A stretch of DNA of 64,000 nucleotides from Streptomyces sp. NBC_01304. GTDB taxonomy: Bacteria > Actinomycetota > Actinomycetes > Streptomycetales > Streptomycetaceae. Where the stretch lies: contig NZ_CP109055.1 of assembly GCF_035975855.1 (NCBI RefSeq), forward strand, positions 7,006,001-7,070,000. The letters are read 5' to 3'. Under the pieces are notes generated by a model that was not told the origin of the DNA, made no database searches, and was given only the letters and a program-made list of their open reading frames with translations. Positions 2,890-43,887 of the stretch are shown here, one piece after another (position 1 is the stretch's first letter; every line of letters begins with the position of its first letter). Made by a program: the position numbers and the translations under genes.

Positions 2890-3013
2890 CTGTCCATGGT
2901 CTCAGACGGGGCGGCCGAAGACTTGGGGCCTAGGACTTCTCTCCAGGCGACCGATGGCGACTGTGGCGGCATGGGCCCTCGCATCCACGGCCAAAGCGCA
3001 GCACAGTGGGTAT

Positions 3014-23942: not shown

Positions 23943-24101
23943 CCCCCACCCCGCCCCTTCCCGAAAGGCCTGCGGCCGGCTTGGGGCGGGGTGGGACCTT
24001 TGTCCTCAATCGCCGGACGGGCTGGTGAAACCAGCCCGTCCGGCGATTGAGGACAGTCCTTTCAGCCGGCGGCAGCCTTACGGGAAGGGGCGGGGCGGGG
24101 A
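23943..24101. repeat. Dispersed hairpin repeat, complete copy, between convergent genes
   Basis: Outer arms CCCCACCCCGCCCCTTCCCG and CGGGAAGGGGCGGGGCGGGG flank an inner hairpin with perfect 24-base arms (24002-24025 and 24031-24054) around TGAAA. The arm core is CGCCGGACGGGCTGG. It lies between the protease (plus) and csnK (minus) and is likely a bidirectional terminator, although the last codons and stop of csnK lie inside it. Confidence 0.85.
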
Positions 24102-26346: not shown

Positions 26347-26352
26347 ATGGTT

Positions 26353-27207
26353 CTAGCCCTTCACTCCGGTCAGGGTGACGCCCTCGACAAATGCCTTCTG
26401 GGCGAAGAAGAAGAGGACGATGACGGGCGCCATGACCAGTACGGTCGCGGCCATCGTCAGATTCCAGTCGGTATGGTGCGCGCCCTTGAACGACTCCAGT
26501 CCGTAACTCAGCGTCCAGGCGGCCGGGTTCTCCGAGGCGTAGATCTGCGGCCCGAAGTAGTCGTTCCAGGCGTAGAAGAACTGGAACAGGGCGACCGCGG
26601 CGATTCCCGGCTTCGCCATCGGGAGCACCACACGGATCAGCGTACGGAATTCACCGCAGCCGTCCACCCGCGCCGAGTCCAGATACTCATTGGGAATGGT
26701 CAGCAGGAACTGCCGCAGCAGGAAGATGGAGAAGGCGTCGCCGAAGGCCATCGGAATGATCAGCGGCCACAAGGTACCCGCCAGATCCAGCTGCTTCGCC
26801 CAGAACAGATACATCGGGATGATGATGACCTGCGGCGGCAGCATCATCATCGAGATGACCAGCATCAGCGACAGATTCCGGCCCCGGAAGCGGAACTTGG
26901 CGAGCGCGTACGCCACGGGAATGGACGAGAGCAGGGTGAGGACCGTGCCCAGGCCCGCGTACAGCAGTGTGTTCTTCCACCAGGTCAGAAAGCCGGGAGT
27001 GTCGAACACCTCGCGGTAGTTGCTCCATTCCCAGTCGCGCGGCCACAGATCGCGGGTGAGCGCCTGTTGGTCGCTCATCACCGAGGTCAGGAACACGAAC
27101 ACGAAGGGCAGCACGAAGAAGAGCGCGGCGGCGACTCCGAGCGCGTGCACCCCGACCCATTCGAGCAGCGCCCTACGGCGTGCCGTCACAGCGGCAACAG
27201 TGGACAT
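26353..27207 (-). CDS. csnG: Carbohydrate ABC transporter permease (MalG type), CsnG
   Basis: 284 residues, six predicted membrane helices (first LGVAAALFFVLPFVFVFLTS). The cytoplasmic EAA-like loop that docks the ATPase is EYLDSARVDGCGEFRTLIRV followed by VLPMAKPGI. It forms the import channel with CsnF. It lies five bases after csnF. No ATPase gene is present in the operon; Streptomyces sugar importers of this class usually share the ATPase MsiK encoded elsewhere. Confidence 0.9.
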   Translation of the reverse strand: MSTVAAVTARRRALLEWVGVHALGVAAALFFVLPFVFVFLTSVMSDQQALTRDLWPRDWEWSNYREVFDTPGFLTWWKNTLLYAGLGTVLTLLSSIPVAYALAKFRFRGRNLSLMLVISMMMLPPQVIIIPMYLFWAKQLDLAGTLWPLIIPMAFGDAFSIFLLRQFLLTIPNEYLDSARVDGCGEFRTLIRVVLPMAKPGIAAVALFQFFYAWNDYFGPQIYASENPAAWTLSYGLESFKGAHHTDWNLTMAATVLVMAPVIVLFFFAQKAFVEGVTLTGVKG

Positions 27208-27212
27208 AGTGA

Positions 27213-28154
27213 TCAGTCACCTGCCTGGATCAGGCCGCCGCGGCGGCGCATGAGGAGCGCCGTGACCGCCATGGCGAGCACGAACAGCACCAGGGCCAGC
27301 ACACACGACGCGCCGTAGTCGAAGCGCGAGAAGCCCAGGTCGTAGACGAGTTGCGGAATGGTCAGCGTCGACTGGTCCGGATATCCGGGCTCGAATTGCT
27401 GACCGGAATTGCCGATGATTCCCGAGGCGACCTTTCCGGCCACGAAGGGCTGCGTGTAGTACTGCAACGTCTGGATCACGCCCGTCACCACGGCGAACAT
27501 CACGATCGGCGAAATGTTCGGCAGCGTGACGAACCGGAACCGCTGGATGGCATTCGCACCGTCCAGCTCGGCCGCCTCGTACTGCTCCTTCGGTACGTCG
27601 AGCAGCGCGGCCATGAAGATCACCATCAGGTCGCCCACGCCCCACACCGCGAGCGAGGTCAGCGCCGGCTTCGACCACGCGGCGTCGGTGAACCAGCCGG
27701 GCGTCGGCAGCCCGAGATCACCGAGGACCGAATTGACCGGCCCGGTACCGGGGTTGAGCAGGAACACGAACGCCAGCGTCGCGGCGACCGGCGGCGCCAG
27801 ATAGGGCAGATAGAAGAGCGTCCGGAAGACACCGGCACCCGTCTTGATCTTCGTGATGAGCAGCCCGACCCCGAGCCCGAAGGCGACCCGGCAGGTGACC
27901 ATGACGAGGACGAACCACAGGGTGTTCCTCATCGCGGGCCAGAACAGCGGGTAGTTGTCGAAGACGTACGTCCAGTTGTCGAGCCCGTTGAACGTCGGCG
28001 GGCGGATCCCGTCGTAGTCCATGAACGAGAAATAGACGGTCGAGAGCAGCGGATAGGCGAAGAAGACGCCGAAACCGATGATCCAGGGCGACATGAAGGC
28101 CGCGGTGCGAAGCGCCGACCGCCGGCGCTTCGCCCGCAGGGTGTACTTGGTCAT
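27213..28154 (-). CDS. csnF: Carbohydrate ABC transporter permease (MalF type), CsnF
   Basis: 313 residues, six or seven membrane helices, with a basic cytoplasmic N-terminus (TKYTLRAKRRRSALRTAAF) and the EAA loop EAAELDGANAIQRFRFVTLP then NISPIV. Pairs with CsnG as the membrane part of the importer. The ATG at 28154 is preceded immediately by AGGGGA. The gene starts 35 bases after csnE. Confidence 0.9.
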   Translation of the reverse strand: MTKYTLRAKRRRSALRTAAFMSPWIIGFGVFFAYPLLSTVYFSFMDYDGIRPPTFNGLDNWTYVFDNYPLFWPAMRNTLWFVLVMVTCRVAFGLGVGLLITKIKTGAGVFRTLFYLPYLAPPVAATLAFVFLLNPGTGPVNSVLGDLGLPTPGWFTDAAWSKPALTSLAVWGVGDLMVIFMAALLDVPKEQYEAAELDGANAIQRFRFVTLPNISPIVMFAVVTGVIQTLQYYTQPFVAGKVASGIIGNSGQQFEPGYPDQSTLTIPQLVYDLGFSRFDYGASCVLALVLFVLAMAVTALLMRRRGGLIQAGD

Positions 28155-28189
28155 TCCCCTGAGTCCTTGAGTCCCTGAGCCCCCGACGC

Positions 28190-29521
28190 CTACTTGGCCT
28201 TTTCGATGTCCGTGTCGATCTGCGCGGCGGTCTTCTCCAGACCTGCCTGCAGATCGGTCTGCCGGCCCTTTTCGTAGTCGTAGCCGAGGCGCTGCAGCGT
28301 CACCTGGTACGCGCCGCCGTCGGCCGCCGCCGGGGTGGTGTTGGACTTCGGGTGCTGCGCGATCTCGATGAACGTCTTGAACTCGGGCGTGACCTCGAGC
28401 TTCGGCGACTTCAGCGCCTCCAGCGTGGAGGGCACATTGTGAATGGCGTTGGCGAAGGCCACGACCTCATCGGTGTCCGTGGTCAGGAACTTCACCAGCT
28501 CCCAAGCGGCGTTCTGCTTCTTGCTGTTGCCGGGGATCCCGATGATCGTGCCCGACAGATAGCCCTTGCCGTAGTCGGCGACCTGGTCGTCCGGGACGGG
28601 CAGCGGCGCGGTCCCGATCTCGAACTTCGCCCCGGCGTCCTTCGTCATCCCGAGCCGCCACTCGCCGTCCAGCTGCATCGCGACCTGGCCGGTGTGGAAG
28701 GGGTGCTTGGCCCCGAACTCGTCACCGAACGTCTTCTGGTGCCGCTCCAGCTTCTCGAAGCCGCCCAGCTTCTCTATGAGCCGCTTCTGGAACTTGAACA
28801 TGTTCGCGAAGGCCGGGTCCTTGGCGATGTTCGACTTGCCGTCCTTGTCGAAATAGGTCGGCCCCCACTGGGCGACGTAGTGCCCAGGCGTCGTCTCATA
28901 GCTGTGGTAGTTGGGCATGAACCCGACCTGCTCGTACGAGTCGCCCTTGGCCTTCGTCAGCTTGACGGCGACCTTCTCGAATTCACTCCACGTCTTCGGC
29001 GGGGCCTTGATGCCCGCCTTCTTGAAGGCGTCCTTGTTGTAGTAGAGGCCGTACGCGTCATTGAGCAGCGGCAGCGTGCACTGGTTGCCGTCGAACTGCG
29101 TGTACTCCTGCAGCGCCTTCGGGAAGACCTTCGTCACGTCGACCTTCGACTTCGCCAGGAACGGCTTCAGATCGGCGAAGGCCCCCGAGGAACAGAACTT
29201 CCCCACGCTGTCCGTCGTGAAGGAGGAGACGACGTCCGGTCCTTTCGAACCCCCGGCCCGCAACGCCTGGTTGATCTTCGGGTCCGTCACATTCGGGGTG
29301 ATGTTCACCGTGATGTTCGGGTGGGCGTCCTCGAAGCGGCCGATCGCTTGCTCGATGGCCTTCTTCTCGCTGTCCGCGGACCAGCCGTGCCAGAAGTTGA
29401 TCGTGGTCTTGGCGTTGGGGTCGTCGTTCGCGCCGTTCTCGGTGGAACCGGTGCAGGCGGAGGCAAGGACCGATATTGATGCGACTGCGGCTGCTGCGAT
29501 CAGCCGGCGGTTTTTGCGCAT
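28190..29521 (-). CDS. csnE: Extracellular sugar-binding lipoprotein of an ABC importer, CsnE
   Basis: 443 residues. The signal peptide RRLIAAAAVASISVLASAC ends in the lipobox LASAC, so the mature protein is probably lipid-anchored outside the membrane. SBP_bac_1 features: INFWHGWSADSEKKAIEQAI and the cleft-lining PLLNDAYGLYYNKDAFKKAG. Start at 29521, after GGGAG. In S. lividans the orthologous operon imports glucosamine oligosaccharides from chitosan. Assignment as CsnE rests on the conserved order ROK, binding protein, two permeases, GH4, kinase. Confidence 0.88.
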   Translation of the reverse strand: MRKNRRLIAAAAVASISVLASACTGSTENGANDDPNAKTTINFWHGWSADSEKKAIEQAIGRFEDAHPNITVNITPNVTDPKINQALRAGGSKGPDVVSSFTTDSVGKFCSSGAFADLKPFLAKSKVDVTKVFPKALQEYTQFDGNQCTLPLLNDAYGLYYNKDAFKKAGIKAPPKTWSEFEKVAVKLTKAKGDSYEQVGFMPNYHSYETTPGHYVAQWGPTYFDKDGKSNIAKDPAFANMFKFQKRLIEKLGGFEKLERHQKTFGDEFGAKHPFHTGQVAMQLDGEWRLGMTKDAGAKFEIGTAPLPVPDDQVADYGKGYLSGTIIGIPGNSKKQNAAWELVKFLTTDTDEVVAFANAIHNVPSTLEALKSPKLEVTPEFKTFIEIAQHPKSNTTPAAADGGAYQVTLQRLGYDYEKGRQTDLQAGLEKTAAQIDTDIEKAK

Positions 29522-29612
29522 GGCGCTGTCTCCCTTGGCGGGCTCGGGTCTTGGCAGGACGTCGGGAAGGACTCGGGACGGAACTTGAGGCGGGACTCTT
29601 GGGTGGTGGTGG

Positions 29613-30848
29613 TCAGCGGGAGGTGTCGAACACCTCGTCGCGGGCGCTGGCGAGCGCGCTCTCCAGCGCACCGCGCAGAACGGGGTGTTCATGGACTTCG
29701 CCGAGCGCGAGCCGGGGCCGGGACGCGGCCAGTTCGGCCAGCTCCGACTGGATCAGGGCACGCAACGGCTCCCCGCCGGCGGGGAACAGGGCGCCGGACA
29801 GGACGATCAGACCGGGGTCGAGCACGGCGACCACGGAGGAGAGACCGATGGCGAGGCGCTGCGCGAACTGCCGCAGCAGCTGGGCGAGTTGCTCGTCGCC
29901 GCTCTCGTCGGCTGCGGCCCGGGCGAGCAGCGAGGTGGCCACCTGGAGGTAGGGCTGCTCGGGGGTGTCGATGCCGAGCTGCTTGGCGATCCTGGGCACG
30001 GACTGGACGCCGGCCAGCTCCTGGAAGCCGCCGCTGTTGGCCTTGGTGACCTGCCGGACCAGCGGCGTCCCGGGCACGGGCAGGAACCCGAGCTCACCGG
30101 CGCCGCCCGTCCAGCCCCGGTGCAGTCGCCCGCCGATGACGAGGGCGGCGCCGATCCCTTCCTGGTCCCAGAGCAGCACGAAGTCGTCGTGCTCGCGGGC
30201 CGCGCCGAGGCGCTGCTCGGCGATGGCGGCGAGGTTCACGTCGTTCTCGTACTCGACGGGCATCGGCAGTACGGCGGCGAGCTCGTCAAGGAGCGTGGGG
30301 GAGTGCCAGCCCGGCAGGTGGCTGGCGTACCTGAGCCGTCCCGTGCCGGGGTCGAAGGCGCCGGGCGTGCCGATGACGACGCGATGCAGCTGGGCCCTGG
30401 TCACCCCGGCGGCCTTCGCGGCGCCGTCGATGGCCTCCGTCACCTGACGTACGACGCCCTGGCCGGCCCGGCCGGGGGTGCGGACCTCGAACTCGCCGAC
30501 CGTCGCCCCGGTGACGTCGGCGACTGCGGCGAGGATCCGCTCGGGGGTGACATCGAGTCCGGCGACGTGCGCGGCCTGCGCGTTCACCGCGTACAGCTGG
30601 GCGTTGGGCCCCGGCCGGCCCTCGCTGGTCCCGGTCGCGACGACGAGGCCGGCGGCTTCGAGGCGGGCGAGCAGCTGGGACGCGGTCGGCTTCGAGAGAC
30701 CGGTCAGCTTCCCGATCCGGGTCCGGGACAGCGGCCCGTGCGCGAGCAACAGGTCGAGCGCGGCCCGGTCGTTCATCGCGCGCAGGACCCGGGGGGTGCC
30801 GGGAGTGGCGGAGGGCGGTCCGGGGGTACCGGGGGTCGTACCGGCCAT
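29613..30848 (-). CDS. csnR: ROK-family transcriptional repressor CsnR
   Basis: 411 residues. N-terminal winged helix (LLLAHGPLSRTRIGKLTGLS then KPTASQLLARLEAAG) and a C-terminal ROK sugar-binding fold with AGLDVTPERILAAVADV and GAALVIGGRLHRGWTGGAGE. The zinc-binding Cys motif typical of ROK kinases is not evident, as in many ROK regulators. It leads the operon and probably represses it until glucosamine oligomers appear. Start: the ATG at 30848, after AAGGGG, is preferred to a GTG at 30884 that has no ribosome site and lies beside the operator. CsnR of S. lividans has the same position and family. Confidence 0.85.
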   Translation of the reverse strand: MAGTTPGTPGPPSATPGTPRVLRAMNDRAALDLLLAHGPLSRTRIGKLTGLSKPTASQLLARLEAAGLVVATGTSEGRPGPNAQLYAVNAQAAHVAGLDVTPERILAAVADVTGATVGEFEVRTPGRAGQGVVRQVTEAIDGAAKAAGVTRAQLHRVVIGTPGAFDPGTGRLRYASHLPGWHSPTLLDELAAVLPMPVEYENDVNLAAIAEQRLGAAREHDDFVLLWDQEGIGAALVIGGRLHRGWTGGAGELGFLPVPGTPLVRQVTKANSGGFQELAGVQSVPRIAKQLGIDTPEQPYLQVATSLLARAAADESGDEQLAQLLRQFAQRLAIGLSSVVAVLDPGLIVLSGALFPAGGEPLRALIQSELAELAASRPRLALGEVHEHPVLRGALESALASARDEVFDTSR

Positions 30849-30892
30849 GAGCTGCCCCTTCGTGCGGTCCTTCGTACTGGCCACGCGAACTG

Positions 30893-31254: not shown

Positions 31255-31791
31255 TCAGGCAGAGATGCCGTCGATCCGGGCCAACGCGTCGTCCGCGCCG
31301 TATGGCTGCAGGTAAGGCAGCCAGCGCGGATCCCTATGCCCGGTCCCGATAATCCGCCAGGCGAGACCGGTGGGCGGGGCCGGTTTGTGCCGCAGTCGCC
31401 AGCCCAGCTCGAGGAGATGGCGGTCGGCCTTGGTGTGGTTGCAGCGGCGGCAGGACGCGACGACGTTCTCCCAGGCGTGCTGTCCGCCCCGGCTCTTCGG
31501 GATGACGTGGTCGACGCTGGTTGCGACGCCACCGCAGTAGGCGCACCGGCCGCCGTCGCGGGCGAAGAGCGCCCGGCGGGTCAAAGGCACGGGCCCCCGG
31601 TAGGGGACCCTCACGAAGCGCTTGAGCCGGACCACGCTGGGTGCGGGGATGGTGCGAGTCGCGCTGTGCATGAAGGCGCCGGATTCCTCGAGGCAGAGAG
31701 CCTTGTTCTCAAGGACGAGGACGAGCGCGCGGCGGAGCGGTACGACGCCGAGGGGCTCGTACGACGCATTCAGAACCAGGACGTGCGGCAC
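31255..31791 (-). CDS. HNH endonuclease domain protein
   Basis: 178 residues. The HNH nuclease core is CAYCGG...SVDHVIPKSRGGQHAWENV...CRRCNHTKADR: two Cys pairs bind structural zinc, and the Asp-His plus the later Asn and His form the catalytic site. The N-terminal half (VLVLNASYEPLGVVPLRRAL) is the typical extension of the widespread actinobacterial McrA-like HNH protein. Start: GTG at 31791 after AGGAGG. It stands alone, not next to a restriction or phage gene, so a role in defence is not indicated. Confidence 0.88.
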   Translation of the reverse strand: MPHVLVLNASYEPLGVVPLRRALVLVLENKALCLEESGAFMHSATRTIPAPSVVRLKRFVRVPYRGPVPLTRRALFARDGGRCAYCGGVATSVDHVIPKSRGGQHAWENVVASCRRCNHTKADRHLLELGWRLRHKPAPPTGLAWRIIGTGHRDPRWLPYLQPYGADDALARIDGISA

Positions 31792-31997
31792 GGATGCCTC
31801 CTATTACGCCGGCGGCGCGTGGCTCGCGCCGGGACGATCTGCTCTCAGTCTCCCCTCAGTGCTGGTCGAAGCGCCACCATGTCCGAGTAACGGGCTCGGA
31901 GTGTTTTCGACCACACCTCGTTCATCCCCAGGTGCGAAGCGTCTCTCCCTCGAACATGACAACGATCCACACACAATGCCCCGTTAGTGTGGTGGGT

Positions 31998-32039
31998 CTG
32001 CCCGCTACATCCCTCTTGGGATCTCCCTCTTGCGGGCAG
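31998..32039 (+). promoter_or_regulatory. Inverted repeat in the leader of the MscS gene
   Basis: Perfect eight-base arms CTGCCCGC (31998-32005) and GCGGGCAG (32032-32039) enclose 26 bases containing two copies of TCCCTCTTG. It ends 25 bases before the GTG start of the mechanosensitive channel and so would be in its mRNA leader. It may be an attenuator or a structural leader element; no known riboswitch consensus was recognised. Confidence 0.35.
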
Positions 32040-32064
32040 GCCGCTACACCTGGAGGTGCCTGCC

Positions 32065-33138
32065 GTGTTCCTGTCCGCCGCCTTGTCGACGTTGTCGGCC
32101 GCGGGGTCCAACGACCCAGCAACCCTGGACGACGCTCAGGAGAAGGCCAAGAGCGCCGCGGGCTTCGTCGAGGACAACTGGGGCTCCTGGCTCGCCATCG
32201 GGCTGCGGGTGCTGCTGATCATCGTGATCGCCACGGTGCTGCGCAGTGTGATCCGGCGGGCCATCACCAAGCTGATAGACCGGATGAACCGGGGCGCCCA
32301 GGCCGTCGACGGCACCGCGCTCGGGGGGCTGCTCGTGAACGCGGAGCGCCGCCGCCAGCGCTCCGAGGCCATCGGCTCGGTCCTGCGCTCGGTCGCCTCG
32401 TTCGTGATCCTCGGCACGGCCGCGCTGATGATCCTCGGCACCTTCGAGATCGATCTCGCACCGCTGCTCGCGAGCGCGGGCGTCGCGGGGGTCGCGCTCG
32501 GTTTCGGTGCGCGCAACCTCGTCACGGACTTCCTGTCCGGCGTCTTCATGATCCTCGAGGACCAGTACGGCGTCGGGGACTCGGTCGACGCGGGCGTCGC
32601 GTCCGGCGAGGTCATAGAGGTGGGGCTCCGCGTGACCAAGCTGCGCGGGGACAACGGCGAGATCTGGTACGTCCGCAACGGCGAGGTCAAGCGGATCGGG
32701 AACCTCTCCCAGGGCTGGGCCACGGCCGGGGTGGACGTGACCGTGCGCTCCGACGAGAACCTGGAGAAGGTCCAGGAGGTGCTCGCCGAGGTGGGCGACT
32801 CGCTCAGCAAGGACGAACCCTGGAACGAGCGGTTGTGGGGGCCGGTCGAGGTTCTTGGCCTTGACGCGGTCTACCTGGACTCGATGGTCGTACGTGTCTC
32901 CGCGAAGACGATGCCCGGGAAGGCGCTCGGCGTTGAGCGGGAGCTGCGCTGGCGGATCAAGCGGGCCTTCGACGCGGCGGGGATCCGGATCGTCGGCGGG
33001 CCCCTGCCGGTCGGGGCCGGGGACGAGGACGACGCGCCTGCGGCGCCGGCTGTTTCCGCGCCGTCCGCGTACGCCTCTTCGACTTCGCCGCAGTCGCTCG
33101 CCGCGTCTCCGATAGCGCCGCCGAATCTGGCGAAGTAG
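32065..33138 (+). CDS. MscS-family mechanosensitive ion channel
   Basis: 357 residues. Three membrane helices: GSWLAIGLRVLLIIVIATVL, VASFVILGTAALMILGTF, and the pore-lining LLASAGVAGVALGFGARNLV followed by TDFLSGVFMILEDQYGVGD, the MscS signature. A beta-rich cytoplasmic domain follows (VGLRVTKLRGDNGEIWYVRN) and a Pro/Ala/Ser-rich tail. It opens under membrane tension to release solutes in hypo-osmotic shock. Start: GTG at 32065 after GGAGGT at seven bases. A hairpin repeat lies immediately downstream, between this gene and the convergent ABC exporter. Confidence 0.92.
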   Translation: MFLSAALSTLSAAGSNDPATLDDAQEKAKSAAGFVEDNWGSWLAIGLRVLLIIVIATVLRSVIRRAITKLIDRMNRGAQAVDGTALGGLLVNAERRRQRSEAIGSVLRSVASFVILGTAALMILGTFEIDLAPLLASAGVAGVALGFGARNLVTDFLSGVFMILEDQYGVGDSVDAGVASGEVIEVGLRVTKLRGDNGEIWYVRNGEVKRIGNLSQGWATAGVDVTVRSDENLEKVQEVLAEVGDSLSKDEPWNERLWGPVEVLGLDAVYLDSMVVRVSAKTMPGKALGVERELRWRIKRAFDAAGIRIVGGPLPVGAGDEDDAPAAPAVSAPSAYASSTSPQSLAASPIAPPNLAK

Positions 33139-35462: not shown

Positions 35463-36007
35463 ACGGTGTTGATCTCCTCGGTGAGGGTGGCGAGCCGGCT
35501 CGCCGTGGTGGCCATCCAACGCAGGTCGGCGTCGAGGTGGTTGAGGGCGTAGTCGGCGGACAGGACGGTGGTGAGGTCGGTGCCCGGCGCCGTCTTGACC
35601 GCCGTGAGTTCGCGCATGCGCGCCATGTGGGCGGTGCGTTGGGCCCGCAGGTACGCGGCCGGATCGGTCGGTTCGCCGGCCGTGGCGGCGAGTGTCGCGA
35701 CGACGACCTTGGCGAAGATCTCGTTGCTCACGAAGGGCGCGGGCGGGGCGATCTGTGCGATCCAGCCGATGAGTTCGCGGCTGCCGGTGGTGGTGGACCG
35801 GTACTTGGTGCGCTCCGGTCCGCCGTCCGAATCGGTGCCGTCGATCTCGGCGAGCCCGTCGCGGACGAGTCGCTGCAGGGTCGTATAGACCTGCCCGTAC
35901 GCCAGCGGGCGGGCCTGCGGGAAACGTTCGTCGTGCCGTCGCTTGAGGTCATAGCCGTGGCTGGGGCCTGCCGCGAGCAGTCCGAGCAGGACGTGGCGAG
36001 TGCTCAT
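35459..36007 (-). CDS. PadR-family transcriptional regulator
   Basis: 182 residues. The PadR winged helix occupies residues 1-80: HVLLGLLAAGPSHGYDLKRR, the conserved AYGQVYTTLQRLVRDGLAE, then TKYRSTTTGSREL in the wing. A C-terminal helical dimerisation domain follows. PadR proteins of this kind repress neighbouring efflux transporters, which fits the overlapping ABC exporter genes. The ATG at 36007 begins MSTRHVLL. A palindrome lies 16-42 bases upstream. Confidence 0.88.
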   Translation of the reverse strand: MSTRHVLLGLLAAGPSHGYDLKRRHDERFPQARPLAYGQVYTTLQRLVRDGLAEIDGTDSDGGPERTKYRSTTTGSRELIGWIAQIAPPAPFVSNEIFAKVVVATLAATAGEPTDPAAYLRAQRTAHMARMRELTAVKTAPGTDLTTVLSADYALNHLDADLRWMATTASRLATLTEEINTV

Positions 36008-36022
36008 ACGCACACTATGCAC

Positions 36023-36049
36023 CGGCTATATGTACTGAGTGAATAGCCG
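36023..36049. promoter_or_regulatory. Putative PadR operator/promoter
   Basis: Inverted repeat CGGCTAT and ATAGCCG with perfect seven-base arms and a 13-base spacer containing ATGTACT. It lies 16-42 bases upstream of the padR start, in AT-rich DNA that could also provide a -10 element. Autorepression by PadR is inferred from position. Confidence 0.45.
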
Positions 36050-36148
36050 ACGGGAAGAAGCTGCAGGCCGAAGTGAAGTGAGAGATTTGATTCCGCTTCT
36101 GGCGTGTCCAATTCGCGGGTCCGGTCCGCGGGTCTGCGAACCGGGGCT

Positions 36149-39121
36149 CTAGCGGGGGTCCTCCTTGACCGCGTACGCCTCGACCGACCACAACGAATAC
36201 CCGAACCGGGTAGCTCGCTCTTCCCCTTGAACCCGGACGAAGCGCACCTCGCGCGCATCCATCCGCACCGACTCCCGCCCGCCCTTCCCGTCCTTCACCG
36301 TGGCCGCCGTGCGCCACGTGCGGCCGTCCGCGGACACCTGGACGCGGTAGCGGGAGGCGTACGCGTCCTGCCAGTGCAGGACCACCTGACCCAGGCGCAC
36401 CGGCTCCCGGAGCCGCAGCTGCCACCAGGCGCCGTCCGCGGCGGGGGAGGACCAACGGGTCTTCGCGTCGCCGTCGTTGGCGGCCGACGCGGGGAAGTCC
36501 CTCGTCTCGTCACCGGACGACGAGGCTTGCCCTGAGCGGGCCAGGTCGGGTCCTGCGGTGCGGGGGTAGGCGCGGACCGTCAGGGTGCGGGTCTCCTCGC
36601 CGAAGGAGACCGGGACGTCGTACGTGCCCGCCGCCGTCCCCGGTGCGACCGTCACCTCGACCGGGACGGACACCTGAGTGCCGCGCGGCAGGCGGGAGTC
36701 GGCCGGGGTGCGGACCGTGATGCCCTTCGGGGGCCGGGTGGTCAGCTTTCCCTGTACGTCGCCGGGGCGCGTGGACGTCAGGCGGGCGGCCACCCGCTGG
36801 GAGGTGCCGCCGATCTCCGCGTCCGTCTCGGCGCGGGCCAGCGACAGGTCGGCGGCCGGTCCGTCGGCGTACCAGGGGACGAGGCGCTCGACCCGGGCCG
36901 CGTCGCCGGTGACCCGGACCGCGTCCACCCGGGCGCCCTGGCCCGGCGCCCCGGTCTCCGTCCAGCCGCCGTCGGCCAGCTTGCCGAGCGCGCGCCAGCC
37001 CTCGCCCGGCACATGGGCCTCCACCGTGCCCTCGGCGCCGGGCGCGGCCATCGCGGTCACCGCGTCGAGCGGGCGGGGGCGGGGCAGCCGGACCGTGTAA
37101 GTGGAGCTCTCCGTACGCTCGTTGACCTCGGCCTTGCCCTGCGGGTGTGCCGCGCCCGTCCACGCGGCGGACTCCCGCCGGGCCCGGTCGAGGAACGGGT
37201 CGAGGACGCCCTTGCCGACCGTGACCCGGGCCGTCTTCAGGTCGCCGCGGAGCGCGTTCAGCTTCCGTGCCGCCGTCCAGGCGGCCGCCCCCTCGCCCTT
37301 CGCCTGCGCAAGGAGCATGTCCACCGCGAGCTCACCGCTCGTGCCGTAGCGCGCCAACTGGTCCAGCCACGGCTTCACTTCGCGTGCCAGCTCGCTGCCC
37401 TTGAGGCGCTCGGGCGCCTGCGCCATCACGCCGAAGGCGGCCCGCAGTCGCTGCCCCGCCTCGTCCAGGCGACCCTGGTCCGCGCTCTCCCTGGCACGCC
37501 AGAAGTCGGCGACGAGCGGGCGCAGATACGCCGACTCCTCGCCGCCGAGCACCGAGGAAGCGTCGTTCCCGGCGAGCGCGGCGACCGCCTCGCGGGCCTT
37601 CCGGTCCGGGCCCGCCAGGTCGTCGATCGCGGCCCGCCAGGACTCCTCGGGCCGGTAGTGCCTGGGATTCCAGGCGTAGTCGGCGGCCGTGAACAGCGGG
37701 ATGCGGGAAGCCGCGGGCTGCTCCATCGCGTTGGCGAGGAGCGCCGCCGAACCCGTGGCGACCGCGGGCTCGCGGCCCGTGTACGGGCCCAGGAAGATAC
37801 GGTCCTGCGCGTAGTCGTTGACCGGATAGTTGTCCATCGTCATCAGCGGATGCTTCAACGCCCCGCGCGCACCGGCCAGTTCGCGCCCGGTGATGGTCCT
37901 CGGCACGACCCCCACCCCGGTCCACGCGACCTGCGTCCTCCCCTTCAGCTCCCGCGCGAGCGCCGCGCGGTACTCGGTGGCACCGTCCTGGAAGAACTCG
38001 GTCGGCATGAGGGACAGCGCATCCGCCGCCCGGTGCCGATCCTTCAGATGTGCGGCCACCGCGTTCGCCACGCGAGCCTGCGCCTTCGCGGCCGCCTCGG
38101 GGCCCGAGCCGAAGGTGTCGGCGTCGTCGTCGCAGTGCCACTCGCTGTACGACACGTCCTGGAACTGCAGTTGGAAGGACCGGACGCCCAGCGCCCACAT
38201 GGCGTCCAGCTTCTTGATCAGCGCCTGTACGTCGCCGTCGGACGCCATGCACATCGCCTGGCCCGGCGACACGGCCCAGGTCAGCGTCACGTGATTGCGC
38301 CGGGCCCGCTCGGCGAGCGCGCGGAAGTCGGCGCGCTCGTCGGCCGGGTAGGGCTCGCGCCAGCGCGCCTGGCGGTACGGGTCGTCCCCGGGGGCGTACA
38401 CGTAACGGTTCTGCTTGGTACGGCCCATGAAGTCGAGCTGCGCGAGCCGCTGTTCGCGCGTCCACGGCGTGCCGTAGAAGCCCTCGGTCATGCCGCGCAC
38501 GGCCGTGCCCGGCCAGTCCCTGACCTGCACACCGGGCACGAACCTGTCGCGGATCAGTTGCCGCAGGGTCTGCACCGCGTGGAACAGTCCGTCCTCGCCC
38601 ACGCCCTGGAGCGCGAGGGTGTCGCGGCCCGCGATCCGGCCGGCCGCCAGGCGGTAACCCCCGGTGGGCAGGTCGGCGCGCTCGGGTGCCTTCAGGGCGC
38701 GCAGGGCGGCATCGCTGCCGGAGCGACCGGCGCCGACGCCAGTGCCGGAGCCCGCGCCGGATCCGGCCCGTACGAGCAGACCCTTCGGCGGCAGCGCGTC
38801 CTCGGAGGGAACCTCGCTGACCATGCGCGCACCCGCCGAGCGCAGCACCTCACGCAGGGCCTCGACCGCGTACGGATCCGCGCCCTCGTCCGTGAGCAGG
38901 AACACCTCGTCGCCCACCGGGACCGCCCCGCCCGCGGCCCGCATCGACTGTGGCTTCGGCCACACCGACGGCAGCCGGTCCGCGCCCTGCGGGTCCTGCG
39001 CGTCGGGAGAGCTGATGCCCGGATCGGCCGGAGCCGCGAGGGCGCCCGGCGCGGCGCCGAGCAGACCGCTGATGACGGCGGCGGCGATGGCCGCGGCACC
39101 CTTCCTGCGCCGGACCTGCAC
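36149..39121 (-). CDS. Secreted GH84-like beta-N-acetylglucosaminidase with C-terminal CBM32-like domain
   Basis: 990 residues. Signal peptide (RRRKGAAAIAAAVISGLLGA, cleavage near ALAAPAD). A glycosidase N-terminal alpha/beta domain spans about 45-200, then a GH84 barrel starts with GFYGTPWTREQRLAQLDFMG. The position of the catalytic Asp pair reads LQFQDVSYSEWHC, so the first Asp of the usual Asp-Asp is Gln321 and only Asp322 remains. A helical region follows, then an NEW3/Ig-like domain and a discoidin-type (F5/8, CBM32) domain near 860-985 with NDGDAKTRWSS. It probably acts on GlcNAc-containing glycans outside the cell, but the substituted residue leaves activity uncertain. Single gene, divergent from the malQ pair. 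Confidence 0.8.
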   Translation of the reverse strand: MQVRRRKGAAAIAAAVISGLLGAAPGALAAPADPGISSPDAQDPQGADRLPSVWPKPQSMRAAGGAVPVGDEVFLLTDEGADPYAVEALREVLRSAGARMVSEVPSEDALPPKGLLVRAGSGAGSGTGVGAGRSGSDAALRALKAPERADLPTGGYRLAAGRIAGRDTLALQGVGEDGLFHAVQTLRQLIRDRFVPGVQVRDWPGTAVRGMTEGFYGTPWTREQRLAQLDFMGRTKQNRYVYAPGDDPYRQARWREPYPADERADFRALAERARRNHVTLTWAVSPGQAMCMASDGDVQALIKKLDAMWALGVRSFQLQFQDVSYSEWHCDDDADTFGSGPEAAAKAQARVANAVAAHLKDRHRAADALSLMPTEFFQDGATEYRAALARELKGRTQVAWTGVGVVPRTITGRELAGARGALKHPLMTMDNYPVNDYAQDRIFLGPYTGREPAVATGSAALLANAMEQPAASRIPLFTAADYAWNPRHYRPEESWRAAIDDLAGPDRKAREAVAALAGNDASSVLGGEESAYLRPLVADFWRARESADQGRLDEAGQRLRAAFGVMAQAPERLKGSELAREVKPWLDQLARYGTSGELAVDMLLAQAKGEGAAAWTAARKLNALRGDLKTARVTVGKGVLDPFLDRARRESAAWTGAAHPQGKAEVNERTESSTYTVRLPRPRPLDAVTAMAAPGAEGTVEAHVPGEGWRALGKLADGGWTETGAPGQGARVDAVRVTGDAARVERLVPWYADGPAADLSLARAETDAEIGGTSQRVAARLTSTRPGDVQGKLTTRPPKGITVRTPADSRLPRGTQVSVPVEVTVAPGTAAGTYDVPVSFGEETRTLTVRAYPRTAGPDLARSGQASSSGDETRDFPASAANDGDAKTRWSSPAADGAWWQLRLREPVRLGQVVLHWQDAYASRYRVQVSADGRTWRTAATVKDGKGGRESVRMDAREVRFVRVQGEERATRFGYSLWSVEAYAVKEDPR

Positions 39122-39392
39122 GGTTGGTCCTGCCCTTCTCGACAGCCCCGGGAGTGGGGGATCCAGGGTGGACCCGAGCCCACCACCACGGTGGTGACAG
39201 TGTCAATGCGCGTGACCGTTGTGCCGGGTTTGCACCCCTGGGAACGGGCCGCGTGTCGCGATCTCGTCCAGGCCCTGGCCAACTCCCGTACCCGGCACAC
39301 AATGTGAGCAGCGCCACGTTGCCCGAATGCCGGACCATTCGCTGGGTAGAGCTCGTCTGGACCCTGCCACCGCTTATGTCAAGGAGGCCCCC

Positions 39393-39635
39393 GTGGCCGC
39401 ATCGGCTCACCTGCTGCTCGACGCCCTCTCCAAACGCCCGGAGCCGGACCTGTCCCGCGTCTCCGACCCCGACTCGGGCCTGCTCGGCTCCTGCTCCTGC
39501 TGCACCCTCGAAGCGCCGCTGACGAGCGAACCGTCGCTCGCCGCCTTCGCCCCCCTGACCAGCGAGCCCCCGCTCGCCGACGCCGCGCCGCTGACCAGCG
39601 AGCCCACCGCCACGGGTACCGCGTCGGGAGTCTGA
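39393..39635 (+). CDS. 80-residue peptide with Cys cluster and three 12-residue PLTSEP repeats, ahead of malQ
   Basis: A short gene with a strong AAGGAGG ribosome site five bases before the GTG start. The first 30 residues are helical and leader-like (HLLLDALSKRPEPDLSRVSD). GSCSCCTLE follows at 32-40, then three units beginning APLTSEP at residues 41, 53 and 65, exactly 12 apart. The end is TATGTASGV. No signal peptide or membrane helix. It ends seven bases before the malQ start, so the two are probably translated together. The leader-plus-repeated-core form resembles RiPP precursors with several cores, but no modifying enzyme is adjacent. It could instead be a small regulatory or metal-binding protein. 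Function unknown. Confidence 0.65.
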   Translation: MAASAHLLLDALSKRPEPDLSRVSDPDSGLLGSCSCCTLEAPLTSEPSLAAFAPLTSEPPLADAAPLTSEPTATGTASGV

Positions 39636-39642
39636 TGACCCC

Positions 39643-41793
39643 ATGACCCTTGCCCGGTTGGCCGCCCTGCACGGCGTCGCCACCTCCTACTCCCCGTCGC
39701 CGGGCCGCACCGTCGAGACCCCGGCCGCCGCGATCGTCGCCGCGCTCGCGGCGCTGGGGGTCGACGCGTCCGCACCGGGCGCGATCCGGGACGCCCTCAC
39801 CCTGCGCGAGGCCGCACTCCGCCGCCGCCTGCTCCCACCGACCGTGGTGTGGCCCGACGGGGTGTCCGGACTGCCCGACGGGACCCGCCTGCGGGTGGAG
39901 ACGGAGGACGGCGAGACGCTGGAGTGGACGGCAGCCGCGGCCGGCTCTGGTGTGCACGACGACGTGCACGACGACGTGCATGACGGCACGCACGAGGACG
40001 CGGACGTCCCCCGACTCCCGTTGGGGATCCACACCCTGCACGCCACCGCCCCCGACGACCGCACCGCTCAGGTCCACCTCGTCGTCGCCCCCGAGCGGGT
40101 CCCCGTCCCGCAGCAGCGGACGTACGGCGTCCTCGTACAGCTCTACTCGCTGCTGTCCCGGCGCTCCTGGGGCATGGGCGACCTCGGGGACCTCGCGGAG
40201 CTCGCCGCCTGGGCGGGACGGGCGCACGGGATCGGCTTCCTCCAGGTCAACCCGCTGCACGCCGCCGTGCCGGGGGCGCCGAGCGACCCCTCGCCCTACC
40301 GGCCCTCCTCGCGGCGCTTCCCGGACCCGGTGCACTTACGCATCGAGGACATACCGGAGTACGCGTACCTCCCGGCCCGAACCCGGGAACGTATCGACGA
40401 CGGACGCGACGGGCATGACGGGCATGACGGGCATGACGGGCATGACGTCCAGGGGATCCTCGAACAGGCCGGGGCCCTGCGGGAGTCCGTCCTCCGCAAA
40501 GGCGCCCTGATCGACCGGGACGCCGTCTGGGCGCTCAAGTTCAAGGCCCTGGAACTGATCCGCACCGTCCCGCTGAGCCCCGGCCGGCGCGCCGCCTACT
40601 GCGACTTCCTCGCCGAACAGGGCGAAGCCCTCGAAGCCCATGCCACGTGGTGTGCGCTGGCCGAACGGTACGGCCCCGACTGGCACACCTGGCCCGAGAC
40701 ACTGCGGGACCCGCACGCCCCGGGCGTCGTCCGGGCCGGCGGCGAGCTCATGGACCGCATCGACTTCCACTGCTGGCTCGCCTGGCTTACCGACGCCCAA
40801 CTCGGCACCGCCCAGCGCACCGCGCGGGACGCGGGCATGGACATCGGACTCGTCCACGACCTCGCGGTCGGCGTGCACCCGGGCGGGGCCGACGCCTGGG
40901 CCCAACAGGCGTTCCACGCGCGCGGGATGACGGTCGGGGCCCCGCCCGACGCCTTCAACTCCCGCGGCCAGGACTGGGGTCTGCCGCCCTGGCGCCCGGA
41001 CGCGCTCGCCGCCGCGGGCTACGCACCCTTCCGCGGCCTGCTGCGCACCCTGTTCGCCCATGCCGGTGCGCTGCGCATCGACCACGTGATGGGCCTGTTC
41101 CGGCTCTGGTGGATCCCCGAGGGACACCCGCCCACCGACGGCACGTACGTCTCGTACGACGCCGAGGCGATGCTCGCCGTCCTCGCGCTGGAGGCGCACC
41201 GCGCGGGCGCGACCGTCATCGGCGAGGACCTCGGGACGGTCGAACCGGGCGTACGCGAGGCGCTGGCGCGGCGCGGCATCCTCGGCACGTCGGTGCTGTG
41301 GTTCGAGCGCGACTGGGAGGGCACGGGCCGCCCGCTCGCCCCCGAGGAGTGGCGCACGGACTGCGTGGCCACCGCCACCACGCACGACCTGCCGTCCACC
41401 GCGGCCCGCCTCACCGGCGAACACGTCCAACTCCGCCACCGCCTCGGCCTGTTGACGACCCCGTTGCTCGTGGCGCAGGCCGAGGACTCGGCGGAGGTGG
41501 GGGAGTGGCTGGGCATCCTCGGCCGGCTCGGGCTGCTGCCGGGCGGCGGGGGCGACGAGGAGGGCGAGATCAGGGCCGTCTACCGCTTCCTGGCGCGCAC
41601 ACCGGCCCGGATGGTGGGCGTCTGGCTGCCCGACGGCGTCGGCGACCGCCGCCCGCAGAACCTGCCGGGCACCTGGGACGAGTACCCGAACTGGCGGCTC
41701 CCGATCGCGGGGGCGGACGGGAGCCCGGTCACGCTGGAGGAGTTGGTGGCGTCGCCGCGCATGCACGCGCTGCTCTCCGCCTTACGTTCCTGA
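39643..41793 (+). CDS. malQ: 4-alpha-glucanotransferase (amylomaltase)
   Basis: 716 residues, GH77. It transfers alpha-1,4-glucan segments in maltodextrin and glycogen metabolism in the cytoplasm. Family landmarks: RRSWGMGDLGDLAELAAWAG, QVNPLHAAVPG, SPYRPSSRRFPDP, GLVHDLAVGVHPGGAD, the nucleophile region LRIDHVMGLFRLWWIPEG, VIGEDLGTVEPGVREAL and TTHDLPSTA. Length is normal for actinobacterial MalQ. Two short in-frame tandem repeats interrupt loops: VHDD-type units at about 39955-39990 and four GACGGGCAT units near 40409. The ribosome site is poor (GGGAG at 12 bases), which fits coupling to the repeat peptide gene. Confidence 0.93.
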   Translation: MTLARLAALHGVATSYSPSPGRTVETPAAAIVAALAALGVDASAPGAIRDALTLREAALRRRLLPPTVVWPDGVSGLPDGTRLRVETEDGETLEWTAAAAGSGVHDDVHDDVHDGTHEDADVPRLPLGIHTLHATAPDDRTAQVHLVVAPERVPVPQQRTYGVLVQLYSLLSRRSWGMGDLGDLAELAAWAGRAHGIGFLQVNPLHAAVPGAPSDPSPYRPSSRRFPDPVHLRIEDIPEYAYLPARTRERIDDGRDGHDGHDGHDGHDVQGILEQAGALRESVLRKGALIDRDAVWALKFKALELIRTVPLSPGRRAAYCDFLAEQGEALEAHATWCALAERYGPDWHTWPETLRDPHAPGVVRAGGELMDRIDFHCWLAWLTDAQLGTAQRTARDAGMDIGLVHDLAVGVHPGGADAWAQQAFHARGMTVGAPPDAFNSRGQDWGLPPWRPDALAAAGYAPFRGLLRTLFAHAGALRIDHVMGLFRLWWIPEGHPPTDGTYVSYDAEAMLAVLALEAHRAGATVIGEDLGTVEPGVREALARRGILGTSVLWFERDWEGTGRPLAPEEWRTDCVATATTHDLPSTAARLTGEHVQLRHRLGLLTTPLLVAQAEDSAEVGEWLGILGRLGLLPGGGGDEEGEIRAVYRFLARTPARMVGVWLPDGVGDRRPQNLPGTWDEYPNWRLPIAGADGSPVTLEELVASPRMHALLSALRS

Positions 41794-41831
41794 CGCAGGC
41801 GTACGTTCCTGACGCACGGCCGCGCGGACAT

Positions 41832-41875
41832 GTCGAGGGCGCCCTCGTGTGCGTACACACAAGGACGCCCTCGAC
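41832..41875. terminator. Bidirectional hairpin terminator between malQ and the small membrane protein
   Basis: Two 20-base arms (41832-41851 and 41856-41875) around the loop CGTA pair at 18 of 20 positions; the outer nine bases are GTCGAGGGC/GCCCTCGAC. It lies between convergent stops at 41793 and 41890. Confidence 0.8.
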
Positions 41876-41889
41876 GGGAAGCGTCGTCG

Positions 41890-42120
41890 CTACTGCTGCT
41901 TGCGGGACTTGTCCCCGACCATCACCAGGCCGGCGATCACCAGGAACAGCACGATCGGGGCCACGACGTAGAGCCCGAGGGTCTCCATCACGTTCAGGCC
42001 GGGGCCCGGGTCGTCGCCGTCGTCGCGCGTGAGCGCAAGCGCGGGGGACGTCATGAGCAGCATCATCAGCGTCGTACCGGCTGCTACGGCGCCGGCGCGC
42101 AGGGCGTTCTTCTTGTCCAC
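41890..42120 (-). CDS. Small membrane protein of unknown function
   Basis: 76 residues from the GTG at 42120. A first hydrophobic segment (AGAVAAGTTLMMLLMTSPAL) looks like a signal peptide or anchor ending near ALALTRDD. A short acidic Asp/Gly/Pro stretch and a second helix (GLYVVAPIVLFLVIAGLVMV) follow, with a short basic tail GDKSRKQQ. No clear ribosome site precedes the GTG, so it may be a leaderless transcript. Composition and hydrophobic pattern support a real gene. Confidence 0.65.
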   Translation of the reverse strand: MDKKNALRAGAVAAGTTLMMLLMTSPALALTRDDGDDPGPGLNVMETLGLYVVAPIVLFLVIAGLVMVGDKSRKQQ

Positions 42121-42202
42121 GGAGCCAACGTAGCGAATGCGGGAACGACCCGCGCGCCCGGGGTGCCCGTACGGGGCACGGACCGGCCCTACGCCTGGTT
42201 CG

Positions 42203-42721
42203 TCACGCCTGGTTCGTCGCGGCAAGGAGCGTGCGCAGGAGGCCGTTCAGTTGCTCCGTCTCCCGGTCGTCGAGCGAGGTCAGGATCGCCTGGCGTACCT
42301 CAAGGCCCGCGACCACCGCCTCCTCGATCAGGGCGAGGCCCTTCTCGGTGAGAGTGACCTGCAGGCCGCGTCGGTCATTCGGGTCGGGGGAGCGGGCCAG
42401 CAGGCCTGCGCGCTCCAGTTTGTCGAGGCGTCCGGTCATGCCGCCCGTGGTGAGCATCAGCGTCGCCGAGAGCTGGCGCGGGGAGAGCGTGTACGGCTCG
42501 TCGGCCCGGCGCAGCGTGGCAAGGACGTCGAACTCGCCCCGGTTGATGCCGAATTGACCGTACGTCCGGTCCATCACCGTCTGCAGCTTCGCGGTGATCC
42601 GGGCGATCCGCCCGAAGACCGCCATCGCCTCCACGTCGAGTTCGGGGCGGACGGAGTTCCACTGGTCGATGATCGCGTCGACCGCGTCCGGGGCCTCCGA
42701 GGCTTTTCGAGATGCGCTCAT
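42203..42721 (-). CDS. MarR-family transcriptional regulator
   Basis: 172 residues. Winged helix with GINRGEFDVLATLRRAD, LSPRQLSATLMLTTGGMTGR and the wing LDKLERAGLLARSPDPNDRR. The N- and C-terminal helices form the dimer. It is divergent from an EamA exporter, and the intergenic DNA carries a 13-base-arm palindrome across the probable exporter promoter, so it most likely represses the exporter and itself. Start: ATG at 42721, giving MSASRKAS. Confidence 0.9.
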   Translation of the reverse strand: MSASRKASEAPDAVDAIIDQWNSVRPELDVEAMAVFGRIARITAKLQTVMDRTYGQFGINRGEFDVLATLRRADEPYTLSPRQLSATLMLTTGGMTGRLDKLERAGLLARSPDPNDRRGLQVTLTEKGLALIEEAVVAGLEVRQAILTSLDDRETEQLNGLLRTLLAATNQA

Positions 42722-42765
42722 GTCCCCAGTATCGGCGCCCGCTCGCTCGGTCGCAAGAAAGTTGC

Positions 42766-42800
42766 TTGACGGAAAGTAGCTTAGGAGTAAGCTACTTTCC
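42766..42800 (+). promoter_or_regulatory. Promoter and MarR operator upstream of the EamA exporter
   Basis: Perfect inverted repeat GGAAAGTAGCTTA-GGAG-TAAGCTACTTTCC (42771-42800). Further half-sites flank it: AAGTTGCTTG upstream and CAAGCTACTT downstream. A -35 TTGACG (42766-42771) and a -10 TAAGCT (42788-42793), 16 bases apart, are embedded in it, so repressor binding would block RNA polymerase. Confidence 0.75.
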
Positions 42801-42825
42801 AGCAAGCTACTTCCGAGGGGGAACC

Positions 42826-43887
42826 ATGAAGCGCACTGGCACCAGCACCAGCACCAGCACCAGCACAGGTACAGGCACCAGCACAGGTACAGGCACCAGC
42901 ACAGGCACAGGCACAGGCACAGGTACCGGCACCGGCACCGGCACCGGCAAGATCGCCACCATCGCCCTCACCGCCCTGGCCCCGATCTCCTGGGGCTCGA
43001 CCTACGCCGTGACCACGGAGTTCCTGCCGCCGGACCGGCCCCTGTTCACCGGCCTGATGCGCGCCCTGCCCGCGGGCCTCGCGCTCCTCGCCCTCGCCCG
43101 GGTGCTGCCGCGCGGCGCCTGGTGGTGGAAGTCGGCCGTGCTCGGTGCGCTGAACATCGGGGCCTTCTTCCCGCTGCTCTTCCTCGCCGCCTACCGCCTG
43201 CCCGGCGGCCTCGCGGCGGTCTTCGGCTCGGTCGGGCCGCTGTTCGCGGTGGGGCTCGCGGCCCTGGTCCTCGGGGAGCGGGTCACCGTGCGCAAGGTCC
43301 TCACGGCGATCGCCGCGGCGTTCGGCGTAAGCCTGGTCGTGCTCAAGGCGACGGCCGGGCTCGACCTCATCGGCGTACTCGCCGCGCTCGCCGGCACCGC
43401 GTCGATGTCCACCGGCACCATCATGACCAAGCGCTGGGGCCGCCCGGACGGCGTCGGCCCGCTCGCCATGACCGGCTGGCAGCTCGCCTGGGGCGGCCTC
43501 CTGATCGCGCCGCTCGCCTTCCTCGTCGAGGGCGCGCCGCCCGCGCTCGACGGGCGGAACATCGCGGGCTACCTCTACCTCGCGCTGGTCAACACGGCGG
43601 TCGCGTACTGGCTCTGGTTCCGCGGCATCGGCCGGCTGAGCGCGTCGCAGGCCACCTTCCTCGGCCCGATGTCCCCGATCGCCGCGGCCGTCATCGGCTG
43701 GGCCGCGCTCGGTCAGGCGCTGACCCCGGTGCAGTTGGCGGGGATGACGATCGCGTTCGGGGCGACGCTCGCGGGGCAGCTGGCGCCGCAGCGGGCGCCG
43801 GGCGTGACCACGGTGGTCGCGAGCTCCGAAACGTTCAGTTCTGCTTCAAAGAACGGTCGAAAGTTTTCGATGGACCTAAGCAAGTGA
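42826..43887 (+). CDS. EamA/DMT-family exporter with Thr-Gly/Ser-Thr repeat N-terminus
   Basis: 353 residues. After a 37-residue tail of alternating Thr with Gly or Ser come ten membrane helices in two EamA halves (first IALTALAPISWGSTYAVTTE; second half ends MSPIAAAVIGWAALGQALTP). It probably exports a metabolite or drug. The tail is encoded by hexamer-like repeats GGCACA/ACCAGC (42838-42949). The last 25 codons after GVTTVVAS use many A/T-ending codons, unlike the rest, as if the 3' end came from other DNA. Start: ATG at 42826 after GAGGGGG. Confidence 0.87.
   Translation: MKRTGTSTSTSTSTGTGTSTGTGTSTGTGTGTGTGTGTGTGKIATIALTALAPISWGSTYAVTTEFLPPDRPLFTGLMRALPAGLALLALARVLPRGAWWWKSAVLGALNIGAFFPLLFLAAYRLPGGLAAVFGSVGPLFAVGLAALVLGERVTVRKVLTAIAAAFGVSLVVLKATAGLDLIGVLAALAGTASMSTGTIMTKRWGRPDGVGPLAMTGWQLAWGGLLIAPLAFLVEGAPPALDGRNIAGYLYLALVNTAVAYWLWFRGIGRLSASQATFLGPMSPIAAAVIGWAALGQALTPVQLAGMTIAFGATLAGQLAPQRAPGVTTVVASSETFSSASKNGRKFSMDLSK
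42838..42949. repeat. Hexamer-like tandem repeat in the 5' end of the EamA gene
   Basis: Irregular runs of ACCAGC, then AGGTAC/AGGCAC, then GGCACC encode a Thr-Gly/Ser-Thr tail. Gain or loss of six-base units would keep the frame, so tail length can vary. Confidence 0.85.

Follow-up and report, generated by a model that had tools for sequence, protein, structure and literature searches.

What is the function of an 80-residue protein that is encoded immediately ahead of malQ and carries the same short motif, LTSEP, three times at regular intervals? The question is raised by the 64,000-nucleotide stretch of a Streptomyces genome of ~11 Mb that was analyzed here (the window). A preliminary description of this DNA saw in the small reading frame either the precursor of a multi-core modified peptide, such as a graspetide or another RiPP, or a conserved partner of MalQ. 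We suggest instead, tentatively and with a probability of about 0.45, that the frame may encode a small stress- and cAMP-controlled protein acting through multivalent binding of its LTSEP motifs to a conserved partner. The earlier interpretation was therefore only partly supported: homologues and repeats behaved as it anticipated, whereas neither the MalQ-partner nor the RiPP reading fared well. The genus concerned is central to antibiotic production, nearly all of its sampled genomes carry the gene, with the pentapeptide under very strong constraint, and LTSEP offers an experimentally easy entry to a conserved partner in an apparent SigB/Crp response. The case also carries a caution, in that the location ahead of malQ appears to have pointed to the wrong function.

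A small gene of Streptomyces and its close relatives

What had been seen directly in the DNA is confirmed (Table 1). The plus-strand frame encodes 80 residues, its three APLTSEP units start at residues 41, 53 and 65, spaced by exactly 12, and its ribosome site is very strong. The stop codon lies 7 bases before malQ, whose own best site by eye, GGGAG at 12 nt upstream of malQ, is fairly described as poor. The repeat DNA consists of three 36-nt units, and identity to the first unit is 75% for the second and 64% for the third. The GSCSCC cluster that had also attracted attention is present in the window protein, but it is not a trait of the family, as cysteine is absent from 18 of 81 coding sequences (80 named loci plus the window) and from 51 of 198 listed proteins. 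The same 81 sequences start with GTG in 71 cases and ATG in 10, and all 81 have a ribosome site of GGAG or better, a count that is biased since starts were chosen partly by their Shine-Dalgarno signal.

Table 1. Features of the LTSEP-repeat gene and its surroundings, in window coordinates
Feature	Position	Strand	Details and basis
Crp/GlxR-type site (candidate) GTGAGCAGCGCCAC	39304..39317	+	fits GTG(N)6GNCAC
SigB-family-type promoter (putative) GAAT-N15-GGGTA	39325..39348	+	-35 at 39325-39328, -10 core at 39344-39348
Shine-Dalgarno AAGGAGG	39381..39387	+	read directly; 5 bases before GTG
LTSEP-repeat small protein	39393..39635	+	80 aa, GTG start; ORF translation, homologue search
N-terminal conserved segment AASAHLLLDALSK	39396..39434	+	residues 2-14; dN/dS 0.32 (81 sequences), alignment A1
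Three APLTSEP units and two spacers	39513..39605	+	LTSEP = residues 43-47, 55-59, 67-71
malQ, GH77 4-alpha-glucanotransferase with MalQ_N domain	39643..41793	+	Pfam; co-oriented neighbor, dispensable for ORF retention

A protein search returned 905 homologous protein clusters at E<=1e-3, and the frame was present at 80 of 80 named loci, mostly with the same neighbors. Conservation on this scale is beyond chance and thus indicates that the frame at 39393-39635 is a real gene. The 80 loci are the best-scoring of 562 that were confirmed and lean toward close relatives, and counts across related genomes are not independent. The named relatives of the window are Streptomyces, and among the best 120 of the 905 matches the products, where named in the sources, are called hypothetical, uncharacterized or secreted proteins. 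A second search, made with an alignment of ten members from other genera, gave 1228 matches among 8000 scored candidates, the best 120 of which bear names such as Streptantibioticus and Wenjunlia as well as Streptomyces.

A 41-row profile, applied at E<=1e-3, matched 59 of 63 genomes of the genus, with no match in the other four (G289, G293, G309 and G337), and 12 of 137 other genomes of the family. One of the latter (G169, L140) is spurious, since the stretch that was read contains no LTSE ORF; its removal reduces the credible members outside the genus to 11 of 137 family genomes, spread over 7 of 16 other genera. Among 246 class-level genomes there were only six weak matches outside the genus (E 9e-5 to 9e-3), and the one that was read (G510, L148) has no LTSE ORF; we therefore do not accept homologues outside Streptomycetaceae.

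The family has no covering entry in Pfam or NCBIfam: a search with the 41 members of alignment A1 at E<=1 gave only matches to one or two members at E 0.05-1. Four member proteins had no match in PHROGs, no family member was found in the plasmid and phage collections, and the window genome contains no paralogue (next match E 0.29). Likewise, no Rfam element matched across 36000-43000, and the single match to a solved structure (E 0.55) was attributed to chance. SCO2649 is presumably the malQ gene of S. coelicolor. In the literature searched, the strings LTSEPPL and PLTSEP do not occur and no mention of SCO2648, SCO2650 or SCO2651 was found; SCO2649 is annotated as malQ in PMC7324645.

Selection is concentrated in the repeated pentapeptide

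Across the 81 coding sequences, mean pairwise dN/dS is 0.03, 0.06 and 0.01 in the three LTSEP motifs. It is 0.32 in residues 2-14, takes values of 0.30 and 0.58 in the two spacers, and reaches 0.63 in the linker and 0.83 in the tail. Divergence at synonymous sites is high in the same sequences, with pS of ~0.5 even within the motifs, and the motif serine has been kept through switches between AGY and TCN codons, TCN being used in some sequences. It follows that selection acts on the peptide and not on the DNA.

The number of units is less constant than their sequence. Three LTSE units are found in 79 of the 81 sequences and four in the other two; among the 198 listed proteins, the motif occurs three times in 150, four times in 40, five times in 3, twice in 4 and once in 1, which is a fragment. 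Successive units are 12 residues apart in 400 of 436 intervals and 11 apart in 26. Thr, Ser and Glu are invariant in all three units of alignment A1 (41 rows), and Ser is retained in 616 of 633 units in the 198 proteins, where the counting pattern itself demanded Thr and Glu. The preliminary description had proposed to look for homologues upstream of malQ and to see whether the number of units changes with Thr, Ser and Glu retained. Such homologues exist across the genus, and the three residues are nearly always kept; exceptions include LISEP in 4 of the 198 proteins, 12 LTAE units and 5 LTGE units. Furthermore, linker length varies across the family, and at three loci (L149, L150 and L152) the protein has two repeats and its N-terminal segment is eroded; these loci are perhaps on the way to losing the ORF.

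The gene is kept where malQ is missing

An obligate partner of MalQ might be expected to be lost together with malQ, which is not what we found. It could well have been imagined that the small protein is a dedicated activator, inhibitor or scaffold of MalQ, as malQ was seen at 61 of the 80 named loci, and the gap between the two genes is <=10 nt, or they overlap, at 29 of the 54 loci with an alignable malQ start. However, malQ was not seen at the other 19 loci. Three of these end at a contig edge (L088, L107 and L111); the remaining 16 of the 80 still bear the ORF, in a region that is largely collinear apart from the lack of malQ. A genome-wide search for MalQ, in which the window genome served as positive control, was negative for 20 of 20 genome handles, namely those 16 genomes and G088, G138, G031 and G287; the handles represent at least 18 distinct genomes, because L073 and G287, and L075 and G138, are evidently the same. 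In a set of 200 genomes of the family, malQ is present in 194 and absent from five genomes of the genus, all five of which bear the ORF.

The converse is also observed. Genomes of other genera have malQ in 136 of 137 cases, yet 126 of the 137 have no credible match to the ORF, and none of 18 malQ upstream stretches read from other-genus genomes without a match contained an LTSE-repeat ORF. Within the genus, malQ is present in G293 and G337, two of the four genomes without a match, with no LTSEP ORF before it.

On a quick tree built from the products of the two upstream genes, the MscS-like and HNH proteins (74 rows, 71 with an assigned state, 14 malQ-less; L070 and L079 left out), the presence of malQ requires six changes, at least five by starred branches. 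The tree alone does not distinguish gain from loss, but loss is the simple reading given that malQ is present in 194 of the 200 family genomes. Within malQ-less groups the dN/dS of the repeats stays low, at 0.055 for five loci around L039 and 0.019 for six around L064, the latter group being defined by ORF similarity and including L070 and L079. Since the ORF is under strong selection after malQ has gone, partnership with MalQ fails as its main function, and the idea of a conserved MalQ partner has been largely refuted; we consider it very unlikely. MalQ is, as judged from these comparisons, not a necessary partner of the LTSEP protein, which probably has a job of its own, independent of MalQ. 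Most simply, the position before malQ would reflect a shared transcript and not a shared function. Long open frames around some matches had raised the possibility of an ORF-MalQ fusion, but at the two loci examined (L120 and L121) the ORF is separate, with 102 aa between stops.

The same observations bear on another scenario, in which the frame is a leader ORF that does no more than tune the translation of malQ in cis, either by coupling or by pausing at Pro-Pro. The strong Shine-Dalgarno sequence, the often short or overlapping gap to malQ and the SEPP motifs would all suit such a leader. Nevertheless, selection operates at the level of amino acids despite diverged codons, the ORF is retained without malQ, and the second Pro of SEPP stands in only 406 of 633 units, being replaced in many others. 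We regard this scenario as highly improbable.

A putative SigB-type promoter and a candidate Crp site

An element of the form GNNT-N14-16-GGGTA lies upstream of the ORF in all 81 sequences, including all 16 malQ-less loci, as compared with 1.4+-1.3 in 50 shuffles. According to passages of PMC8346170, GGGTA is the consensus for the SigB homologues of S. coelicolor and the less conserved GNNT is tied to the osmotic-stress group; genes of the SigB regulon in Streptomyces have this same type of promoter. Those passages do not name the LTSEP gene, and the paper contains no 'SCO26' term. We describe the promoter as putatively of SigB-family type.

The loose Crp-type pattern GTG-N8-CAC occurs within 200 nt upstream of 80 of the 81 ORFs (7.0+-2.6 in 50 shuffles), and the strict form GTG(N)6GNCAC, the consensus quoted in a passage of PMC10033298, upstream of 46 of 81 (2.3+-1.3 in shuffles), which makes the gene a candidate member of the Crp regulon. 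The distance from the GTG of this site to GGGTA is 50 nt in 65 of 80 cases, 40 in 9, 51 in 3 and another value in 3. The window has the 40-nt spacing; in L041 and L042, both malQ-less, a Crp-type site is found only farther upstream. The main alternative distance differs from the common one (50 versus 40) by one helical turn, which fits an activator that touches RNA polymerase from one face.

The arrangement is rare elsewhere. When 932 regions lying upstream of other called genes (not the ORF, malQ or GH84) were taken as background, the GGGTA element was found in 53 of 53 called ORFs versus 11 of 932, and both elements in order in 50 of 53 versus 1 of 932. GTG-N8-CAC alone occurs in 167 of the 932 regions, of which 119 precede the divergent HNH and MscS genes, and this pattern is thus not peculiar to the ORF; in the window by itself, the strict pattern is not significantly enriched (15 sites versus 16.35 expected). 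Of nine loci from other genera, all 9 have the GGGTA element, but only 2 have a Crp site in the equivalent position. Since GNNT-N14-16-GGGTA also lies within 330 nt upstream of 9 of 20 malQ genes that lack the ORF, the promoter may predate the ORF. Among such ORF-less malQ genes, a GNNT-N-GGGTA element lies at about -70 to -93 in L154, L156, L157 and L158 (g7) and at about -150 in all four loci read of g14 (L163-L166).

A promoter of this kind would also be expected for a general stress protein with a bulk physico-chemical effect, comparable to a hydrophilin. The protein is small and rich in Pro, Ala, Ser, Thr and Glu, with a mean net charge of ~-10 in the 81 sequences, as such an idea would have it. 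However, composition would suffice for an effect of this sort, which leaves a near-invariant pentamer with dN/dS near 0.03 unexplained, and a charge-hydropathy plot, which places 79 of the 81 sequences on the folded side, does not support disorder. We accord this explanation a small chance.

A proposed role in motif binding

We propose that the frame would be translated into a small protein in Streptomyces and its close relatives, from a transcript that would start at the ORF's own SigB-family-type promoter, with SigB and, through the Crp-type activator site, Crp as the likely controls, and that would usually carry malQ as its second gene. The working part would consist of LTSEP short linear motifs in tandem, most often three but ranging from two to five, which a linker of variable length would tether to the short N-terminal segment AASAxLLLSALSK, probably a helix for docking or oligomerization. 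The motifs might bind a conserved cytoplasmic partner multivalently, and the protein could then serve as an adaptor, scaffold or inhibitor in a stress/cAMP response.

We favor motif binding because selection at the protein level is concentrated in the motifs, whose number varies while their sequence hardly does, because it persists in the two malQ-less groups, and because the GGGTA element accompanies every ORF, with or without malQ. In these respects the LTSEP protein is like short-linear-motif adaptors in general, which combine a near-invariant short motif in variable number with drifting surroundings. Disorder is not part of our proposal, given the result of the charge-hydropathy plot. A bacterial receptor for LTSEP is not known to us. 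Modification at several sites would suit the conserved Thr, Ser and Glu as well as binding does. The loci with two repeats and no proper N-terminal segment, and the four genomes of the genus in which no match was found, also weigh against our proposal.

Comparison with graspetides and other RiPPs

Graspetide precursors, such as those of microviridin, plesiocin and thuringinin, consist of a leader and a repeated core. The LTSEP protein is like them in that a leader-like N-terminus and a linker precede repeats with Thr/Ser and an acidic residue, and it would be tempting to read the N-terminus as a leader and the LTSEP units as cores or modification sites of an enzyme encoded elsewhere in the genome. 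The invariance of Thr, Ser and Glu in all three units of A1 and the retention of Ser in nearly all units counted (by a pattern demanding Thr and Glu) speak for this, as does the frequency of TIGR04187 enzymes in the genus (50 of 61 genomes).

Several points argue against it. No ATP-grasp ligase or other maturase was recognized among the families found repeatedly in flanks of up to 10 kb around the 80 loci (two of these families have no Pfam match), and the window genome as a whole has no TIGR04187 match; PF21068 likewise gave no match, but neither did its controls. Cysteine is not conserved, in the core or elsewhere, contrary to what a lanthipeptide or another Cys-based RiPP would show. In addition, the putative core is near-invariant genus-wide instead of variable, some members have LISEP or LTAEP in place of the motif, and the N-terminus is eroded in some lineages. 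On inspection, neither the microviridin leader sequence PFFARFL nor the motif P-h-h-x(1,2)-h, which occurs in about half of graspetide precursors according to a passage of PMC8939145, is visible in residues 1-40 of the window protein. The RiPP/graspetide suggestion thus finds little to sustain it, and a modified peptide of this general layout is in our opinion rather unlikely.

A more specific variant, a stress-induced peptide found throughout the genus whose LTSEP units receive Thr/Ser-Glu cross-links or another mark from a distant enzyme, seems improbable to us. If this variant were true, the product would represent a new class of multi-core modified peptide, with a housekeeping role, and not a strain-specific natural product.

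The PIMT-like methyltransferase encoded at 2954-4012 resembles TIGR04188 (ATP-grasp peptide maturase methyltransferase) below the cut-off, with 262 versus 380 bits, and could be part of a two-gene locus of pamtide type. Enzymes of this kind act on Asp, as stated in a passage of PMC10787088; no Asp in the repeats is invariant in A1, and one spacer Asp is present in all ten rows of alignment A2.

Neighboring genes

In the flanks of the 80 loci, up to 10 kb, the families seen most often are a small membrane protein, MscS, HNH, malQ, GH84, ROK, LysR, PepN and sugar uptake. Ten representatives of recurring families without a homologue in the window were compared with Pfam, which assigned them to allantoicase, fatty acid desaturase, beta-lactamase, EamA, FAD-binding, fucosidase, M7 peptidase and TetR families, two having no match. 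Two neighbors were rejected as partners: GH84 was not seen at 21 of the 80 loci, a number that includes some truncated where the contig stops, and the small membrane protein at 41890-42120 is present in 189 of the 200 family genomes, most of which lack the ORF.

The gene of this membrane protein is on the minus strand in the window; of 77 relatives only L101 shares this, the other 76 having it on the plus strand. Similarly, the divergent HNH/MscS-like pair at 31255-33138, taken as a block, has the opposite orientation to that in 73 of 74 named relatives, the exception being L083, which agrees with the window. GTG-N8-CAC lies upstream of HNH in 56 of 60 relatives and of MscS in 63 of 74, the window site being at 31901. 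A sugar uptake block at 24062-30884, with genes for a GlcNAc-kinase-like protein, a GH4-like protein (alpha-galactosidase model), an ABC transporter and a ROK regulator, is syntenic with the ORF in many relatives. MalQ itself contains in-frame low-complexity stretches at 39949-40005 (GVHDDVHDDVHDGTHEDAD) and 40402-40446 (GRDGHDGHDGHDGHD), and a transporter-like ORF at 42826 has TSTSTGTG repeats.
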